Both the position numbers and the translations under genes were made by a program. The notes beneath the pieces were generated by a model, which saw only the letters and a program-made list of their open reading frames with translations, made no database searches and was not told the DNA's origin. DNA of 64,000 nucleotides from Lysobacter capsici (GTDB lineage: Bacteria > Pseudomonadota > Gammaproteobacteria > Xanthomonadales > Xanthomonadaceae), in assembly GCF_014779555.2 (NCBI RefSeq), contig NZ_CP094357.1:4340001-4404000 (forward strand). Direction: 5' to 3'. This document shows positions 32,244-38,435 of the stretch, piece after piece (the stretch's first letter is position 1; each line of letters starts with the position of its first letter).

Positions 32244-34313
32244 TTACACGGCATTGGATGCAGGACGCGCCTGCTCGTAGCCGTTGAACACCACCGACGC
32301 CGAGGCCCGTCCCTGGGTCAGCGAGCGCAGCGCGGTCGCGTAACCCGACAACGCGGCCAACGGCGCGCGCGCGGTCACGTCCGTGCGGCTGCCCTTGTCC
32401 TCGATGCCGAGCACCCGGCCCGAGCGGCGTTGCAGATCGCCGACCACATCGCCGACGTTGCCGGCGGGGGTGTCGATGACCAGCGCCATCACCGGTTCGA
32501 GCAAGGTCGTGCCGGTCACCGCCAACGCCGCCTTCAAGGCTTCGCTCGCGGCGCGCTGGAACGCCAGCTCGCTGGAGTCCACCGCGTGGGTCTCGCCGTC
32601 GGTGAGGCTGACGGTGAGGCCAACCAGCGGATAACCGCGCGGACCTTCGCTCAACGCCGCGCGCAGGCCCTTCTCCGTCGCATTGACGAAGTTCTTGGGC
32701 ACCACGCCGCCGCTGGTGCGATCGACGAACTCGAACTGCCCGTCCTCGCGCGGCGCGACATCGATCGTCACCCGCGCGAATTGGCCCTGCCCGCCGTTGC
32801 GCTTGACCAGCTTGCCCTCGATGCCCGCGACCGCGGCGCTCGGGGTTTCCTGGTAGGCCACGCGCGGCGAACCGGTGCGCACGTCCACGCCCCAGCCTTC
32901 GCGCAGGCGCTCGACCATGACGTCCAGATGCAGCTCGCCCATGCCCCAGACCAGGGTTTCGCCGGTTTCCGGATCGGTGCCGACCCGGAACGACGGATCT
33001 TCCTGAGCCAGGCTGGCCAGGCCCTGGCCCAGACGGATCAGGTCGCTGGCCTTGGCCGCGGTCAGACGCCACGACAACACCGCCGGTTGCGCCTGGATCG
33101 TGTCGAGCACGAGCTTGCGTTCGACGCCGCTGAGGGTTTCGCCGCTGACCGCGTCCTTCCATCCCTGGATCGCGACGATCTCGCCGGCATACGCCACCTC
33201 GACATCGCGGCCGTGATCGGCCTGCACCACCACCAGTCGACCGACCCGTTGCGCGCGCTCGCGACGCGAGGCCCACACCGTGTCGCCGACCCGCAGCGTG
33301 CCCGAGTACAAACGCACGAACGACAGCGCACCGTGTTCCTGATGCACGATCTTGAACACCAGACCGCCCAGCGGACCGGAGGCATCCGGCGCCAGCGCCA
33401 CTTCGCCGTCTTCACTTTGCGCCGTCACCATTGGACGATCCAGCGGCGACGGCAGGTAGTCGACGATGGCGTCGAGCAGGGTTTCCACGCCCTTGTTCTT
33501 GAACGCGGAACCGCCCAGCACCGGCGTGCCGGCGCCTTTCAGGGTGCCGCGACGCAGCGCCGCCTTGAGCAGCTCGCTGTCGATCGCGCGCGCGTCCAGG
33601 AAAGCCTGCGCGAGCTCGTCGTCGTGATCGGCGACGGCCTCGATCAGGCGCTCGCGCAGCGGTTCGTGCTCGCGCGTTTCCGCCTCGTTCCAGGGGCGCC
33701 GGGCGATGCCGCCCGTCTCGTCCCACAGCACGAGTTCGCGCGCGACCAGGTCGACCCAACCGCGCAGATCGCTTTCCGCGCCCAGCGGCCGGCCGATCGC
33801 CCACGGCGTCGCATCGAGCTTGTCGCGCATCTGCGCGAGGGTTTGCTCGAACGACGCGCCGACGCGGTCCATCTTGTTGACGAACGCGATCAGCGGCACG
33901 CCGTGCCGGCGCGCCTGACGCCACACGCTTTCCGATTGCGGCTGCACGCCGTCGACCGCGCTGAACACGGCGACCGCGCCGTCGAGCACGCGCAGCGAAC
34001 GCTCGACTTCGATCGCGAAGTCGATGTGGCCGGGGGTGTCGATGATGGTCAACCGATGCTCGGCCAGGCCTTGCGGGGTCCAGTGCGTCTGCACCGCGGC
34101 CGCGCCGATGGTGATGCCGCGGCGTTGTTCGATCGGATCGAAGTCGGTGGTGGCGGCGCCGTCGTGGACTTCGCCGACGCGATGGATCGCGCCGGTTTTC
34201 CACAGCAGCCGTTCGGTCAGCGTGGTCTTGCCGGCGTCGACGTGGGCGATGATGCCCAGATTGCGCCAGCGCGAGGGGTTGAGGTTGAGAGTGCGGGTGT
34301 TCGTGGTGTTCAT
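32244..34313 (-). CDS. EF-G-like translational GTPase (stand-alone paralogue)
   Basis: This 689-residue GTPase has all five EF-G domains. G1 is AHVDAGKTTLTER, switch I ends in RRGITIG, G3 is DTPGHIDF and G4 is NKMD. Domain IV carries HAVDSSELAFQ with the His that EF-G inserts into the decoding site. The C terminus reads GYATALRSLTQGRAS as in EF-G. Compared with canonical FusA it is a little short, has AHVDAGKTTLTE (as in TetM-type ribosomal protection proteins) instead of AHIDAGKTTTTE, and is not next to rpsL, rpsG or tuf. It is therefore probably a second EF-G with a conditional role. The leader upstream suggests induction by slowed translation. Confidence 0.88.
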   Translation of the reverse strand: MNTTNTRTLNLNPSRWRNLGIIAHVDAGKTTLTERLLWKTGAIHRVGEVHDGAATTDFDPIEQRRGITIGAAAVQTHWTPQGLAEHRLTIIDTPGHIDFAIEVERSLRVLDGAVAVFSAVDGVQPQSESVWRQARRHGVPLIAFVNKMDRVGASFEQTLAQMRDKLDATPWAIGRPLGAESDLRGWVDLVARELVLWDETGGIARRPWNEAETREHEPLRERLIEAVADHDDELAQAFLDARAIDSELLKAALRRGTLKGAGTPVLGGSAFKNKGVETLLDAIVDYLPSPLDRPMVTAQSEDGEVALAPDASGPLGGLVFKIVHQEHGALSFVRLYSGTLRVGDTVWASRRERAQRVGRLVVVQADHGRDVEVAYAGEIVAIQGWKDAVSGETLSGVERKLVLDTIQAQPAVLSWRLTAAKASDLIRLGQGLASLAQEDPSFRVGTDPETGETLVWGMGELHLDVMVERLREGWGVDVRTGSPRVAYQETPSAAVAGIEGKLVKRNGGQGQFARVTIDVAPREDGQFEFVDRTSGGVVPKNFVNATEKGLRAALSEGPRGYPLVGLTVSLTDGETHAVDSSELAFQRAASEALKAALAVTGTTLLEPVMALVIDTPAGNVGDVVGDLQRRSGRVLGIEDKGSRTDVTARAPLAALSGYATALRSLTQGRASASVVFNGYEQARPASNAV

Positions 34314-34320
34314 GACGATG

Positions 34321-34324
34321 CCTT
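34321..34324 (-). promoter_or_regulatory. Ribosome-binding site of EF-G paralogue
   Basis: AAGG lies seven bases before the ATG at 34313 and three bases after the 3' arm of an inverted repeat (34328-34334), so access to it could depend on how the leader folds. Confidence 0.6.
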
Positions 34325-34327
34325 AAT

Positions 34328-34374
34328 GCCAACACGGGAGGCCGCGCGCCCCTGTTGGCTGCAAGGCGCGCGGC
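34328..34374 (-). promoter_or_regulatory. Competing hairpins between leader frame 2 and EF-G start
   Basis: Two inverted repeats interlock. Hairpin A pairs 34365-34374 with 34341-34350 (10-bp GCCGCGCGCC / GGCGCGCGGC) and begins at the last base of the 9-codon frame's stop. Hairpin B pairs 34353-34359 (GCCAACA on the minus strand) with 34328-34334 (TGTTGGC). The arms alternate, so they form either a pseudoknot or exclusive structures. A ribosome ending on the short frame would open hairpin A. A translational-control role is inferred. Confidence 0.6.
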
Positions 34375-34403
34375 TAGGTTTGGGTTTCGGCCGTGGAATT
34401 CAT
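34374..34403 (-). CDS. Nine-codon leader open frame upstream of EF-G paralogue
   Basis: The frame MNSTAETQT is preceded by AAGGAG eight bases before its ATG, one of the best ribosome-binding sites in the window, and ends in TAG 60 bp before the EF-G start. The strong site ahead of such a short frame, with hairpins starting right at its stop codon, suggests it is translated for regulation, not for its product. Whether the peptide is made is untested. Confidence 0.55.
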   Translation of the reverse strand: MNSTAETQT

Positions 34404-34505
34404 GGCACGTTCTCCTTGGTTTTCAGGGGTTTCGGTGAAGGAATTGCGCTTGTTCGGCGGGTCGCGCGGATCGTTTTCGACGGATGTCTTCGACAAATTC
34501 CGGGC

Positions 34506-34531
34506 AATAAAAAAGCACCCTTGCGGGTGCT
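34506..34531 (-). terminator. Intrinsic terminator/attenuator in EF-G leader
   Basis: On the minus strand AGCACCC, a GCAA tetraloop and GGGTGCT are followed by TTTTTATT. It lies 28 nt after the stop of the 32-codon leader frame and about 190 bp before the EF-G start. No recognisable gene upstream needs it: the SMC gene ends 1.1 kb away. Its 5' arm can instead pair with 34597-34603 inside the leader frame, making it a probable attenuator. Confidence 0.8.
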
Positions 34532-34558
34532 CTGTTCTGGTGTGGCTTCGCGCGGTCG

Positions 34559-34657
34559 TTACATCGACGCAGCGGCGAAAATCACAGGAGGCAGGCGCAC
34601 CCGGCCCGCGCTCACGCGCTGGGCTTGCAGCGATATCAGTAGCGGGAACTGCTTCAT
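34559..34657 (-). CDS. 32-codon leader open frame upstream of EF-G paralogue
   Basis: The frame begins MKQFPLLISL and ends AAASM with stop TAA. It overlaps the RNA segments that decide the attenuator's fold: segment 1 (34616-34624, GCCCAGCGC), segment 2a (34604-34611, GCGCGGGC, pairs with 1) and segment 2b (34597-34603, CGGGTGC, pairs with the terminator's 5' arm). No strong Shine-Dalgarno is seen; an in-frame ATG at 34690 lies too close to the -10 box to be used from this promoter. It contains R-V-R followed by L-P-P, a combination that can slow ribosomes. Translation is inferred from layout. Confidence 0.55.
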   Translation of the reverse strand: MKQFPLLISLQAQRVSAGRVRLPPVIFAAASM

Positions 34658-34690
34658 GGGTGCGGTACGACTGCGGTTTTGGGTGTGCAT

Positions 34691-34718
34691 AGAGTAAGGG
34701 CGGCGCGGCGGGAGTCAA
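34691..34718 (-). promoter_or_regulatory. Promoter of the EF-G leader
   Basis: The -35 box is TTGACT (34713-34718) and the -10 box TACTCT (34691-34696), with a 16-bp spacer. Expected start is about 34684, some 27 nt before the leader frame's ATG. Confidence 0.65.
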
Positions 34719-35630
34719 TGGGCGCGGGGTGTGGGTGGCTGGGATGTATCGTTCCATCGGCTGGATGGAGATCGGGCGGATGGGGAAATCGGGCGGTGGG
34801 GCGTCTTTGTTTGAGCCGGCAAGGCGTGCCATGAATTACAGCGTGTTTGCACGAAGTCGCGGCTGAAATCGGCGCCCGCTTTGGAAAAGGGGGCGAGCGC
34901 CCGGCAGGGTTCGATCCTGAGGGGCGATCGGTGCGCGGGGGATTCGCTTTTGGGCGGTCGGCGCTGCGATGGAGCGAGAGCAAAAGCGAATCCCCCCTGC
35001 CCCCCTTTTACAAAGGGGGGAACAGCAACAGCAACGACGACGGCACGGCGACTGTAACTGTAATAACAACGCCAGAGCAGCGGCGGTGGCGGCGCCGACG
35101 ACACCAACACCAACACCAACGGCCACGACCACAACCGCGGCTGTAGCCACGGCTACTGCTACTGCTACTGCTACGGCTACGGAGACGGCGAAGGCGAAGG
35201 TGAAGGTGAAGGTGAAAGCGAAGGCTCTACGATTGCCTAAACACAAATGCTCCGGGTAAATCACGGAGCAGCCCATTTTCCGCACGAAGCCGCGGCTGAA
35301 ATCGGCGCCCACTTTGGAAAAGGGGGCGAGCGCCCAGTGTGGTTCGATCCTGAGGGGCGATCGATGCGCGGGGGATTCGCTTTTGGGTGGTCGGCGCTGC
35401 GATGGAGCGAAAGCAAAAGCGAATCCCCCTGCCCCCCCTTTTACAAAGGGGGGGAACAGCAACAGCAACGACAACAGCAACGACAACAGCAACAGCAACG
35501 ACAACGGCAACGACAACAGCAAAGGGAATTCGATTGTAGAAAAACGCTTATGTCGAGCGAGCCGCGGGCTCCGGATGTATCACGGAGCCACTTGCAGCAA
35601 TCAGGCTGAATCACCTCCAGCCACACCCCC
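34719..35630. repeat. Gene-free region with two modular repeat copies and short tandem repeats
   Basis: Two direct copies (about 34852-35035 and 35280-35465) share modules in order: CGAAG(T/C)CGCGGCTGAAATCG; TTTGGAAAAGGGGGCGAGCG; CGCGGGGGATTCGCTTTTGG; AAAAGCGAATCCCCC; and a CCCCCCTTTTACAAAGGGGG hairpin ending in AACAGCAACAG. The second and fourth modules can pair. Copy 1 continues into degenerate trinucleotide-like runs (ACCAACACCAAC, GCTACTGCTACTG, GGTGAAGGTGAAG; to about 35222). Copy 2 continues into CAACAG/CAACGA hexanucleotide repeats (35457-35520). No real gene was found. Confidence 0.75.
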
Positions 35631-38435
35631 TCACGCCGCCTTGTTGTCCTCGCACTTGCGCTTGAGCACCGCCACCGCTTCCGCCCATGGGTTGCCGCCG
35701 CGGCGTTTGCTGGTCGCCAGCACCAGGTCGGAGGGTTCGAATACGTTGAGGTTGTGGGTGATCGGCGTGGTCAGGATGTACTGCGCGTCGGTGGCGCGCA
35801 GGAAGCGGCCCACCTTCTCGATGTTGAACACGTCCAGATGCGCGAACGGTTCGTCGATGAAGACGAAGCCGCCCGGCTGATCCTCGTCGCGCAGCAAGGC
35901 CACCAGCAGCAGCAGCGACTTCATCACCTGCTGACCGCCCGAGGCCTCGCCATCGTCCAGGCCGATCCAGCCCTTGCGGTCGAAATCGAAGCGCACCGAC
36001 AACCCGGCCTGGGCCAGGGTCACGTCGTCATTGGCCAGTTCCGGCATATCGGCGTCGACGCCGATGCCGGCCAGGTCGCCGAGCGCGGCGAGGTTCTTCT
36101 TGTAACGGCGCACAGTCGCGCGCAGCACGTTGATGTAGGCGCCACGCGCTTCTTCGGTGAGGCGCTTGGCGCGGTCCAGATGCGCTTCGCGGCGGCCAAT
36201 CGAACTTTCCAGCTCGTCGTGGTCGGCGCCGATCTTGTCGCGCAACGGAACGCAGGATTCGTCGGAGACGAAACCGCCGCGCTCCAACCGATCGTCCATG
36301 CGCTCGATCTCGCGACGCACCGCCGAAGTGCTTTCGTACTCGGCGCGCGCGGCCGCGAGCGCGGCGGGGCTGCGCCAGGCATCGGGCATCAGCGCGCGCT
36401 TGCGGCGGTAGTCGAGGATGCGCTGGATCAGGCTCTGGCGTTCGCCGTGGATCTGCTGCCCGCGTTCGCGCAACTCGCGCGCGAGCGCGTCGATCTGGCC
36501 CTGACGCTTGGCCGCGGCGATGCCTTCGGCCTTGTCCTGCTCGGCGGCCTCGTCGATCTTGGCGCGCGCCTGGGCCAACGCGGCCGCGGCTTCGGCGGCG
36601 GCTTCGGCCAGTTCCGGCAGACGCGCCTGCGCGTCGGCGAATTCGTTGGCGCGGGTGACCAGTTCCTGCGCCGCGTCCAGGCCCATCAGACGCGACTGAT
36701 CGGCGTCGACGCGCTGGCTCAGCTCGTGCAACTCGGCCTCGCGCGATTGCGCGCGCTGGGTGATCGTCGCCAGTTCCGCGCGCAGTTCGGCCAGATGCGA
36801 CTGCCGCGCGCCGCTGCCGAAATGATGCTGGTTGCCGCCGATATGGCGGCCGCCGCGGCTTTCGCGCAGATAGCCCTTCTGGGTGATCCAGTCCTGCCCG
36901 GCCGGCAGGCGCGCGCCGTGTTCGATATCGGTGACGCGGCGGATGCGATCGAGCTGACGCGGCAACCACGCCGGCGGATCGGCCGAGAAACGCACCACTT
37001 CCAGCAAGGAACCGGCGCTGGCCTTGGGCACCGGCGCGCGTTCGGCGACGATGAAATGACGGTACTGCTGACTCTCGCCGAGCTTCCACGCGATCCGCGC
37101 GTCCTTGGGATTTTCCAGCACCAGCAGATGCCGGTACGGCGCCAGCACCGCCTCGACCGCGACCGACCACTGCGGATCGGCGATCTCGACCAGTTCGGTC
37201 AGCACCTGATGCTTGATGCCGGCCTGTTCGAGCCCGGCGCGGAAGTCGCGTTCGAACGGCTCGACGATGCGCCCGCCGCCGCTGAGCGCGGCGGTCTGCG
37301 CGGAAATCTCGCCGCTACGCTTGCGGTCGCGCTCGGCTTCCAGCTTCAACTCGGCCTGGCGGCGGCGTCCGCTTTCGACGCTGGCGCTGAGCGCCTCGAC
37401 GTCGATCGCGCCGCGCTGAGCCTGCAGGCGCGCCAGTTCGTCGCGACGCTTGACCAGCATCTCGGCATCGCGCGCAGCGTCGCGCGCCTGGGTGAAGGCC
37501 TGCTCGCTCGCGGTCACCTGACGGCGCGCTTCGCGCATCGCTTCTTGCAGCACGTCGCGGCCGGTCGCGGCGATCGCGTCGTCGGCGCGCATCTCCTCGA
37601 GGATCCGCTCGCGTTCGCGCAGCGCGCGGCGCAGCCCGGTCAGACGCGGCTTGGCGCCTTCGATCGCCACGCGCTGATCGGCCAGTTCGACCTTCGGCGC
37701 GATTTCGCTTTCCAGGCGATGGCGCTGATTGCGCAGCGCATTGCCTTCCTCGAACGAACGCACGTCGGCCTTGGCCGATTCCAGGCGCAGGTGCAGGCCG
37801 GCTAGGTCCTGGCCGAGCTGCTGTAATTCCTTTTCGACATCGAACTGCTCGGTGCGCGCGCGCTGGTAGTCGTCGAGCACCGCCTTGTCTTCGAACACGT
37901 CGAAGATCAGTTGCAGCAGATCGCGCGGCGAGTACTGGCAGAGTTTGTCGGTCGCGCCTTGCTCGAGGGTGAGCACGCGGCAGATCGCGCGGGTCAGCCC
38001 GGCGCCGGCCAGACGCACGCGGTAATCGCGCACGCCGAGCCAATCACCGCCTTGTTCGAGCGTTTCCACCGGGGTGTCGCCGGCGACGATCTGGTAATCG
38101 CGGCTCCAGTCGCCGCCGCGCTTGCGGATGCGGCAGGCCAGCGTGACCACGTCGTCCTTGATCGGGAAGAACGGCCGGCCGCCGCGTTTGTCAGGGCGGT
38201 TGCTGACCACCGCGCGCAGCCATGCGTACGGCTTGCCGTTGTGGCGCAGATAGGTCTTGTAGTCGCGCGCGGTGTCGCGGTCTTCGATCGCCAGCAAGGT
38301 GCGCAGCGCGTCGAGCAACGTCGTCTTGCCCGAGCCGTTGGGACCGACCACGGTGACGATGGACGCGTCCAGCGGCAACTGGAAACGCTGCCAGTAATCC
38401 CAGTGGACGACTTCGAGGGAGCGGAACTCAAACAT
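35631..38435 (-). CDS. SMC-like ATPase of MksB/JetC (MukB-type) family
   Basis: This 934-residue coiled-coil ATPase binds DNA and would extrude or entrap it together with the two genes upstream. Walker A is GPNGSGKTT at 31-39. Long coiled coils run to about 395 and resume after about 555, separated by a globular hinge. The signature SGGQQVMKS starts at about 832 and Walker B is GFVFIDEPFAHLD with Asp861 and Glu862. Size and companions fit the MksB/JetC group, not classical Smc. It overlaps the preceding gene by eight bases, so the three genes form an operon. No JetD-type nuclease gene follows. Confidence 0.88.
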   Translation of the reverse strand: MFEFRSLEVVHWDYWQRFQLPLDASIVTVVGPNGSGKTTLLDALRTLLAIEDRDTARDYKTYLRHNGKPYAWLRAVVSNRPDKRGGRPFFPIKDDVVTLACRIRKRGGDWSRDYQIVAGDTPVETLEQGGDWLGVRDYRVRLAGAGLTRAICRVLTLEQGATDKLCQYSPRDLLQLIFDVFEDKAVLDDYQRARTEQFDVEKELQQLGQDLAGLHLRLESAKADVRSFEEGNALRNQRHRLESEIAPKVELADQRVAIEGAKPRLTGLRRALRERERILEEMRADDAIAATGRDVLQEAMREARRQVTASEQAFTQARDAARDAEMLVKRRDELARLQAQRGAIDVEALSASVESGRRRQAELKLEAERDRKRSGEISAQTAALSGGGRIVEPFERDFRAGLEQAGIKHQVLTELVEIADPQWSVAVEAVLAPYRHLLVLENPKDARIAWKLGESQQYRHFIVAERAPVPKASAGSLLEVVRFSADPPAWLPRQLDRIRRVTDIEHGARLPAGQDWITQKGYLRESRGGRHIGGNQHHFGSGARQSHLAELRAELATITQRAQSREAELHELSQRVDADQSRLMGLDAAQELVTRANEFADAQARLPELAEAAAEAAAALAQARAKIDEAAEQDKAEGIAAAKRQGQIDALARELRERGQQIHGERQSLIQRILDYRRKRALMPDAWRSPAALAAARAEYESTSAVRREIERMDDRLERGGFVSDESCVPLRDKIGADHDELESSIGRREAHLDRAKRLTEEARGAYINVLRATVRRYKKNLAALGDLAGIGVDADMPELANDDVTLAQAGLSVRFDFDRKGWIGLDDGEASGGQQVMKSLLLLVALLRDEDQPGGFVFIDEPFAHLDVFNIEKVGRFLRATDAQYILTTPITHNLNVFEPSDLVLATSKRRGGNPWAEAVAVLKRKCEDNKAA

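Follow-up and report, generated by a model that had tools for sequence, protein, structure and literature searches.

Organization of the locus

The window analysed here is a stretch of 64,000 nucleotides from Lysobacter capsici (contig NZ_CP094357.1, positions 4,340,001 to 4,404,000). Its minus strand carries a gene for a paralogue of elongation factor EF-G, preceded by a leader which includes a putative promoter, two short upstream reading frames (uORF1 and uORF2), an intrinsic terminator and a pseudoknot-like fold (Table 1). The leader is real and conserved. Among the titles and abstracts listed in searches of the open-licence PMC literature, none described such a leader before an EF-G paralogue for Lysobacter, Stenotrophomonas or Xanthomonas, which is weak evidence of absence.

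Table 1. Features of the EF-G paralogue locus, with positions in the window
Feature	Positions	Strand	Basis
Putative promoter TTGACT-N16-TACTCT (TTGACT 34718-34713, 16-nt spacer, TACTCT 34696-34691)	34691..34718	-	Letters read; boxes kept in Lysobacter rows
uORF1, 32 codons, MKQFPLLISLQAQRVSAGRVRLPPVIFAAASM (ATG 34657 to TAA 34559)	34559..34657	-	Frame at near-fixed distance from 2b; without Shine-Dalgarno
Rare ATA codon 8 of uORF1, proposed pause site	34634..34636	-	Codon conservation and rarity
P1 hairpin (segments 1 and 2a)	34604..34624	-	Conserved core; compatible with antiterminator; possible pause hairpin
Segment 2b, CGGGTGC, 5' arm of antiterminator base	34597..34603	-	Pairing with segment 3
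Antiterminator, long helix from 2b to segment 3	34524..34603	-	z -3.49; includes UGUG:CACA (34586-34583 with 34544-34541)
P3 hairpin GTCG-ATGTAA-CGAC at uORF1 stop codon	34555..34568	-	Antiterminator apex; single-sequence folds
Intrinsic terminator (segments 3 and 4) and U-run	34509..34531	-	Terminator scan (9 pairs, GCAA loop); z -5.33
uORF2 Shine-Dalgarno, AAGGAGA	34411..34417	-	Context GGAGAACGTG conserved in 56/57 non-g88 rows
uORF2, MNSTAETQT and stop, 9 codons	34374..34403	-	Conservation of frame length
Helix A, GCCGCGCGCC (34374-34365) with GGCGCGCGGC (34350-34341)	34341..34374	-	Covariation
Helix B, GCCAAC (34359-34354) with GTTGGC (34333-34328)	34328..34359	-	Present in 57/57 non-g88 rows; interleaved with helix A
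EF-G paralogue, 689 aa	32244..34313	-	TIGR00484; match to solved EF-G; identity to the genome's EF-G

The protein is an EF-G over its full length: it scores 722 bits against TIGR00484 (cut-off 659.4) over residues 13-682 and matches a solved EF-G across residues 14-682. Its identity is 45% to the EF-G encoded at 4437526 in the same genome and 33% to another EF-G-like protein, and it misses the NCBIfam cut-off for tetracycline ribosomal protection proteins (NF012153, 364.1 of 775 bits).

The gap of approximately 1.3 kb upstream of the EF-G gene also includes a 172-nt direct repeat (34849-35020 and 35282-35453), whose copies share 93% identity and are separated by 433 nt; the second is followed by short tandem repeats of the AACAGC type (35455-35522). 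The upstream gene (35631-38435, minus strand) encodes a 934-aa SMC/RecF-like ATPase, all 20 NCBIfam matches of which lie under the curated cut-offs.

Distribution of the paralogue and its leader

In a sample of 397 genomes of the order, the paralogue was found at E <= 1e-190 in 56 genomes belonging to 8 of 98 genera; outside the order, a search of 252 genomes of the class at the same threshold returned only the window's own genome and one 48% match. Both gene and leader are present in all 20 genomes examined of the window's genus. We assembled 77 upstream regions (rows of the alignment), from the 56 genomes of the order sample, 15 other genomes of the genus and 5 named records. One region (L056) lies on the same contig as another (L013) and its removal leaves 76, and in all 76 the leader precedes the EF-G paralogue. 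They come from three families of the order. The genera are labelled g1 (that of the window), g7, g19, g28, g47, g48, g76 and g88, the last being a genus of another family. Among the matches listed, relatives with the leader include Lysobacter enzymogenes, Tahibacter soli, Stenotrophomonas rhizophila, S. maltophilia (one isolate and one MAG) and a Lysobacterales MAG; by likeness, the Stenotrophomonas records were provisionally grouped with g48 and Tahibacter with g28.

Two exact leader patterns occurred in 21/60 and 27/299 genomes; each of these genomes had a single match, always immediately upstream of the paralogue. The reversed control patterns gave zero matches anywhere. Such exact patterns would miss diverged copies, and the first indeed misses two genomes (G013 and G037) which both have the leader. 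Searching 274 genomes of the class with the uORF1 peptide (E <= 10) matched the window's own genome and, weakly, 30 others. Ten loci among these weak matches were inspected by eye and the leader layout was seen in none. Rfam gave no matches over the window and, over 34250-34760, seven at E 1 to 5, all far under the gathering score.

Promoter and uORF1

An earlier reading, made from the sequence only, had proposed a promoter and a 32-codon leader frame upstream of the terminator, and both can be read at the places proposed. For the promoter this concerns the letters: a strict sigma-70 scan found no promoter in 33500-35500, and the call therefore relies on conservation of the boxes, TTGACTC and TACTCT or TACGAT being kept across the Lysobacter rows (two rows end short of the boxes).

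The frame has a constrained geometry. It is 29-36 codons long in 77/77 rows, with 55-67 nt from its start to segment 2b and 28-39 nt from its stop to the terminator (in L172 the start-to-2b distance was printed as 49 nt, the other 2b copy having been picked; the copy at -71 was used instead). Over 45 distinct rows the diversity of the Leu-6 codon is 0.67 at position 3 and 0.04 at positions 1-2, the pattern expected of a translated frame. A Shine-Dalgarno-like motif precedes uORF1 in none of the 56 non-g88 rows and in 5 of the 20 g88 rows; given this lack of a recognisable ribosome-binding motif outside g88, its translation is putative. In two regions (L060 and L061) uORF1 starts 8 nt past a TAGAAT box and the mRNA may be leaderless.

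The Arg-Val-Arg (R-V-R) codons which lie on segment 2b in the window are replaced in other rows by RAR, RAC, RAY, RGR, RVC or MVR, and in g88 (20 rows) the uORF1 peptide is unrelated and 2b falls in another reading frame. As judged from the aligned regions, it is the nucleotides rather than the peptide that are conserved at this place.

Terminator and antiterminator

Segment 1 (GCCCAGCGC, 34624-34616), segment 2a (GCGCGGGC, 34611-34604; GTGA loop), segment 2b, segment 3 (GCACCCG, 34530-34524) and the terminator (AGCACCC-GCAA-GGGTGCT, its T run ending at 34509) were all found where the sequence-only reading had located them. Segment 3 can pair with either 2b or segment 4, and thus antiterminator and terminator are mutually exclusive structures with a common strand. 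The terminator hairpin is more stable than expected by chance (z -5.33; none of 200 shuffles as good), the whole attenuator less so (z -2.17; 6/200). Over the 52 distinct non-g88 rows, 99.7% of terminator cells are paired, one pair having changed from A-U to G-C in 18 rows.

The 2b:3 pairing is possible over six bases, with G-U allowed, in 76/77 rows and over five in L137, and 93.4% of its cells are paired over the same 52 rows. At one pair C-G has replaced U-A in 16 rows, which all belong to g48, and L162 has the U-G intermediate. The matching changes in 2b:3 and in the terminator appear as a three-way compensatory change at a single position, which probably represents one or two events on one branch. 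Shuffles match the number of double-changed 2b:3 pairs (500/500 reach it) but fall short of the number of cells (16 against 5.5; 0/500). The alignment of the g88 attenuator was judged by eye only.

What the earlier reading had missed is the body of the antiterminator. In the window, 2b to segment 3 forms one long helix of -32.9 kcal/mol (1 of 200 shuffles as good). Among 17 distinct Lysobacter rows, 97.1% of the cells of 16 chosen pairs are paired, and four of these pairs have changed on both sides, in 17 cells; 0 of 500 shuffles reach this cell count or the covariation score and 48 of 500 the pair count. The consensus folds of g7, g48 and g88 contain no double changes in the antiterminator, and that of g88 recovers only 2b:3. 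The helix is capped by a second overlooked element, the hairpin P3 at the uORF1 stop codon. When each 2b-3 stretch was folded alone, the stop codon lay in a terminal hairpin in 68/76 regions and in its loop in 58/76, against a background of 29.6% of all positions; P3 is absent from the consensus folds of g1, g48 and g88.

The role given earlier to the upstream hairpin did not hold. Pairing 1:2a together with 3:4 had been taken as the alternative to 2b:3, with a ribosome stalled over segment 1 as what sets 2b free. The 1:2a and 2b:3 pairings have no base in common and stand together in the minimum-energy fold of the L001 region. P1 is thus not an off-state competitor, and the proposal that blocking segment 1 frees 2b is unsupported. 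Its 4-bp core is paired in 88.9% of cells, with two of the four pairs changed on both sides; columns slid by 2 as a control still pair in 79.3% of cells. P1 may possibly be a pause hairpin. Another arrangement, considered by eye, would have 2a pair with the 3' flank of 2b as well.

Ribosome position and a rare early codon

To see which ribosome positions allow the antiterminator to form ahead of segment 4 synthesis, we masked the RNA from 14 nt upstream to 16 nt downstream of the first P-site base. Antiterminator probability exceeds 0.5 in 69/76 regions with the ribosome at codon 4, in 71/76 at codon 6 and in 67/76 at codon 8. It does so in 54/76 at codon 10; near the end of the frame, six, four and two codons short of the last one, the counts are 17, 23 and 27 of 76. 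A ribosome on 2b makes the antiterminator impossible by construction, which among nine sequences concerns codons 14-25 in five and codons 16-28 in four. Exceptions are g88, which fails at codon 10 in 15/20 regions, L175, which fails at codons 10-15, and L023, where the antiterminator works only at codons 6-11. These results predict that early arrest should mean read-through. They place the robust window at about codons 4-8; the productive stall suggested earlier, "near codons 8-13", is close to what the scan and the ATA codon 8 indicate. They also agree with the proposal that a stall on the R-V-R codons would favour termination, as a ribosome there covers 2b.

The two ends of the series are less simple. 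The antiterminator still exceeds 0.5 in 43/76 regions (19 of the 20 from Lysobacter among them) with the ribosome at the last codon, and in 51/76 with no ribosome. These two results leave the off state unexplained, and it must come from passage over 2b timed with RNA polymerase; the ribosome-free result implies, moreover, that poor translation of uORF1 would keep the gene switched on. Folded at full length with no ribosome on it, the RNA prefers the terminator by 0.2-10.3 kcal/mol (nine sequences), and timing must therefore decide.

A candidate for such timing is codon 8 of uORF1 (numbered with the Pro of Pro-Leu-Leu as codon 5). Of the 37 leaders that belong neither to g48 nor to g88, 34 have ATA here, although this codon makes up 4 of 24,897 codons in the EF-G genes at these loci and 4 of 13,407 in 25 long ORFs of the window. 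In g48, codon 9 is TTT in 17/19 rows, and TTT is there the minority Phe codon (13/209 in their EF-G genes). The test is unusable in g88, where the reference comprises 860 codons. A rare codon in the early window is likely to be a timing device.

A second stage: uORF2 and a pseudoknot-like fold

Between the terminator and the EF-G gene lies a second stage, positions 34417-34328, which the earlier reading had missed. It begins with a strong Shine-Dalgarno sequence and uORF2, which in the 56 non-g88 rows has 9 codons in 46, 10 in 3, 14 in 5 and 22 in 2. A counterpart of 7-9 codons (MKNCRDPRS and variants) is present in 19/20 g88 rows, two of them read by eye. The stop codon of uORF2 has been lost in L058, L061, L141-L144 and L146, where the frame extends to 14-22 codons, into the fold.

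Helix A of the fold is well supported by covariation: over 50 distinct rows, 96.4% of its cells are paired and 6 of its 10 pairs have changed on both sides, in 37 cells, and none of 500 shuffles reaches the covariation score of the whole structure. Helix B is invariant in these rows and therefore provides no covariation, which makes the joint formation of A and B putative. In g88 the letters of the fold are different but the strands follow one another in the same A-B-A'-B' order, with 94.2% of cells paired over 18 rows, four double-changed pairs and a helix B which is invariant or nearly so. The same layout thus occurs with unrelated sequence in a genus of another family, and this recurrence is our strongest argument for the importance of the layout.

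The 3' end of the fold usually lies 14-21 nt before the EF-G ATG (in seven rows an earlier in-frame start was taken). By eye, the gene's own ribosome-binding signal looks weak in Lysobacter, and less so in g48 and L023. In one g88 genome (L166, G272), uORF2 and the fold have been lost or were never present, and the attenuator leads straight into EF-G, a natural one-stage version of the leader.

A two-stage model

The anatomy of the leader, its conservation, compensatory changes, geometry and codon bias are directly observed; translation of both uORFs, the direction of the response, its inducer, pausing at P1 and the coupling of the second stage to EF-G are inferred. Our preferred reading, which we consider probable, is that the leader is a two-stage, ribosome-operated switch placed before a spare EF-G gene.

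For stage 1 the best explanation is transcription attenuation mediated by the ribosome. As RNA polymerase transcribes uORF1, a ribosome held early (about codons 4-8), with the rare AUA after Pro-Leu-Leu as the likely timing point, would leave 2b and the following stretch free. The free 2b would meet the emerging segment 3 to give the long antiterminator helix, capped at the uORF1 stop, and transcription would run on. Ribosomes passing fast onto codons of about 14-28 would instead cover 2b, the 3:4 terminator would form and transcription would stop. Stress which slows elongation early in uORF1 would therefore yield more mRNA for the EF-G paralogue. In stage 2, the read-through mRNA would load ribosomes at the 9-codon uORF2. 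With the uORF2 stop placed at the 5' strand of the pseudoknot-like fold, the terminating ribosome would melt the fold and allow EF-G to be translated.

An extension of this model, speculative and in our view rather unlikely, is that the two stages gauge the two jobs of EF-G, the slow AUA of uORF1 timing translocation and the stop of uORF2 timing termination and recycling, and that the spare EF-G is called up accordingly. If true, the leader would be a dedicated gauge of EF-G activity, calling a spare and possibly drug-tolerant EF-G when the housekeeping EF-G is blocked or short.

Alternative readings

Other explanations could be given for the leader. The terminator might simply end a small RNA or the small-protein gene uORF1, in which case a separate promoter below 34508 would drive EF-G. 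The terminator is strong by itself (z -5.33), an attenuated transcript would itself resemble a small RNA, the strict promoter scan is negative on both sides of the terminator, and in the window the gap between terminator and uORF2 is long enough to hold a promoter. In 75 regions, however, the U-run is separated from the Shine-Dalgarno region of uORF2 by 10-121 nt (median 40), and L166 has its EF-G ATG 19 nt past the U-run; in the short cases this leaves little room for such a promoter; the spacer is, in addition, poorly conserved in sequence. A stray terminator would not account for the compensatory changes in 2b:3 and the antiterminator, nor for the fact that all exact-pattern matches lie at the paralogue. 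All 77 rows have a short ORF (of putative translation) before the terminator together with the overlapping switch. We thus find this explanation improbable and side with the attenuator logic of the sequence-only reading: the frame conservation and the compensatory changes on which that reading had staked the idea are both seen, together with the often short gap to uORF2, and the idea is not refuted. As for the second element, it might be a ligand- or protein-binding RNA, a riboswitch-like pseudoknot beside which uORF2 is incidental. Interleaved helices next to the EF-G start, a helix B invariant in 50 rows and the seven g48 rows in which the uORF2 stop is lost would fit such a role. The strong Shine-Dalgarno sequence of uORF2 in 56/57 rows and the lack of an Rfam match speak against it, as does the short frame which ends at the fold in two groups whose folds have no common sequence, something unexpected for a single ligand pocket; we give this reading, too, little credence.

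Two further possibilities concern what uORF1 would sense. The R-V-R motif, of the type known as +X+, might arrest drug-bound ribosomes, as RLR does in the hflXr leader, and the present leader would then be a macrolide sensor. GRVR stands at codons 18-21 in the Lysobacter rows, and the hflXr leader has an RLR peptide before a ribosome factor, according to the part of PMC6310831 used here. In other groups R-V-R is lost or out of frame, so that the leaders as a set do not share a +X+ motif, and a ribosome arrested there would cover 2b and favour termination, the opposite of induction; we regard this as very unlikely. That uORF1 should be an amino-acid attenuator, sensing charged tRNA for AUA (Ile) or the supply of leucine, is hardly credible: Leu-Leu-Ile(AUA) is conserved, but g48 has mostly ACG or AAG followed by TTT, the g88 peptide is unrelated, and the downstream gene is EF-G rather than a biosynthetic gene.

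Significance

For additional copies of EF-G the function is often unclear. A conserved attenuator suggests that this copy is made when translation is in trouble, giving it a direct and testable role as a ribosome-stress factor alongside HflXr, ABC-F proteins and TetM. In the portion of PMC12572303 consulted, variants of EF-G are described which slow drug-bound ribosomes and can thereby increase resistance to aminoglycosides, which makes an inducible EF-G paralogue a plausible tolerance factor. The switch proposed here would also add a leader with two serial reading frames, whose layout is kept while the peptides change entirely.

Comparison with known systems

The window's genome includes two RtcB-family genes (G000:C1:5016263-5017390 and 800619-801737), a family which we take to be that of ArmZ. 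The PA5471.1 leader of armZ in Pseudomonas aeruginosa resembles the present leader in the logic described for it. In the published passages on which we draw, full translation leads to the 3:4 terminator and arrest to read-through, and the downstream gene responds to translation stress (PMC13041342, PMC12057347, PMC3516279); armZ is expressed when the ribosome arrests on PA5471.1 or meets an early amber codon in it, and complete translation yields the terminator (PMC13041342). The differences are that the gene downstream is that of the ArmZ anti-repressor and not of EF-G, that the peptide is shorter (13 aa) and that those passages report no second uORF.

The hflXr/rli80 system of Listeria places a housekeeping ribosome-factor homologue under a drug-induced transcription attenuator with a leader ORF. 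This ORF has 14 aa, with an RLR motif in the region of the anti-antiterminator (PMC6310831, in part). In the present leader it is segment 2b that carries the RVR codons, which are not conserved, and a second stage is reported nowhere in the hflXr account to the extent cited. Relatives of EF-G include the ribosomal protection genes tetM of Enterococcus and tetQ of Bacteroides, which are listed as attenuated, tetM at the level of transcription and tetQ at that of translation (PMC5418344, in the portion used). The window's protein, in contrast, is under the tetracycline-protection cut-off and over that for EF-G.

In the canonical operon which includes the housekeeping fusA, predicted attenuators of the rpsL-leader family stand before rpsL, in Xanthomonas among others, with no leader peptide mentioned in the section of PMC2965389 cited. 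The toiL uORF of E. coli topAI, finally, is a short uORF which answers several classes of ribosome-targeting drugs; it differs in acting on translation with Rho-dependent termination and has no intrinsic terminator in the part of PMC12121999 considered.
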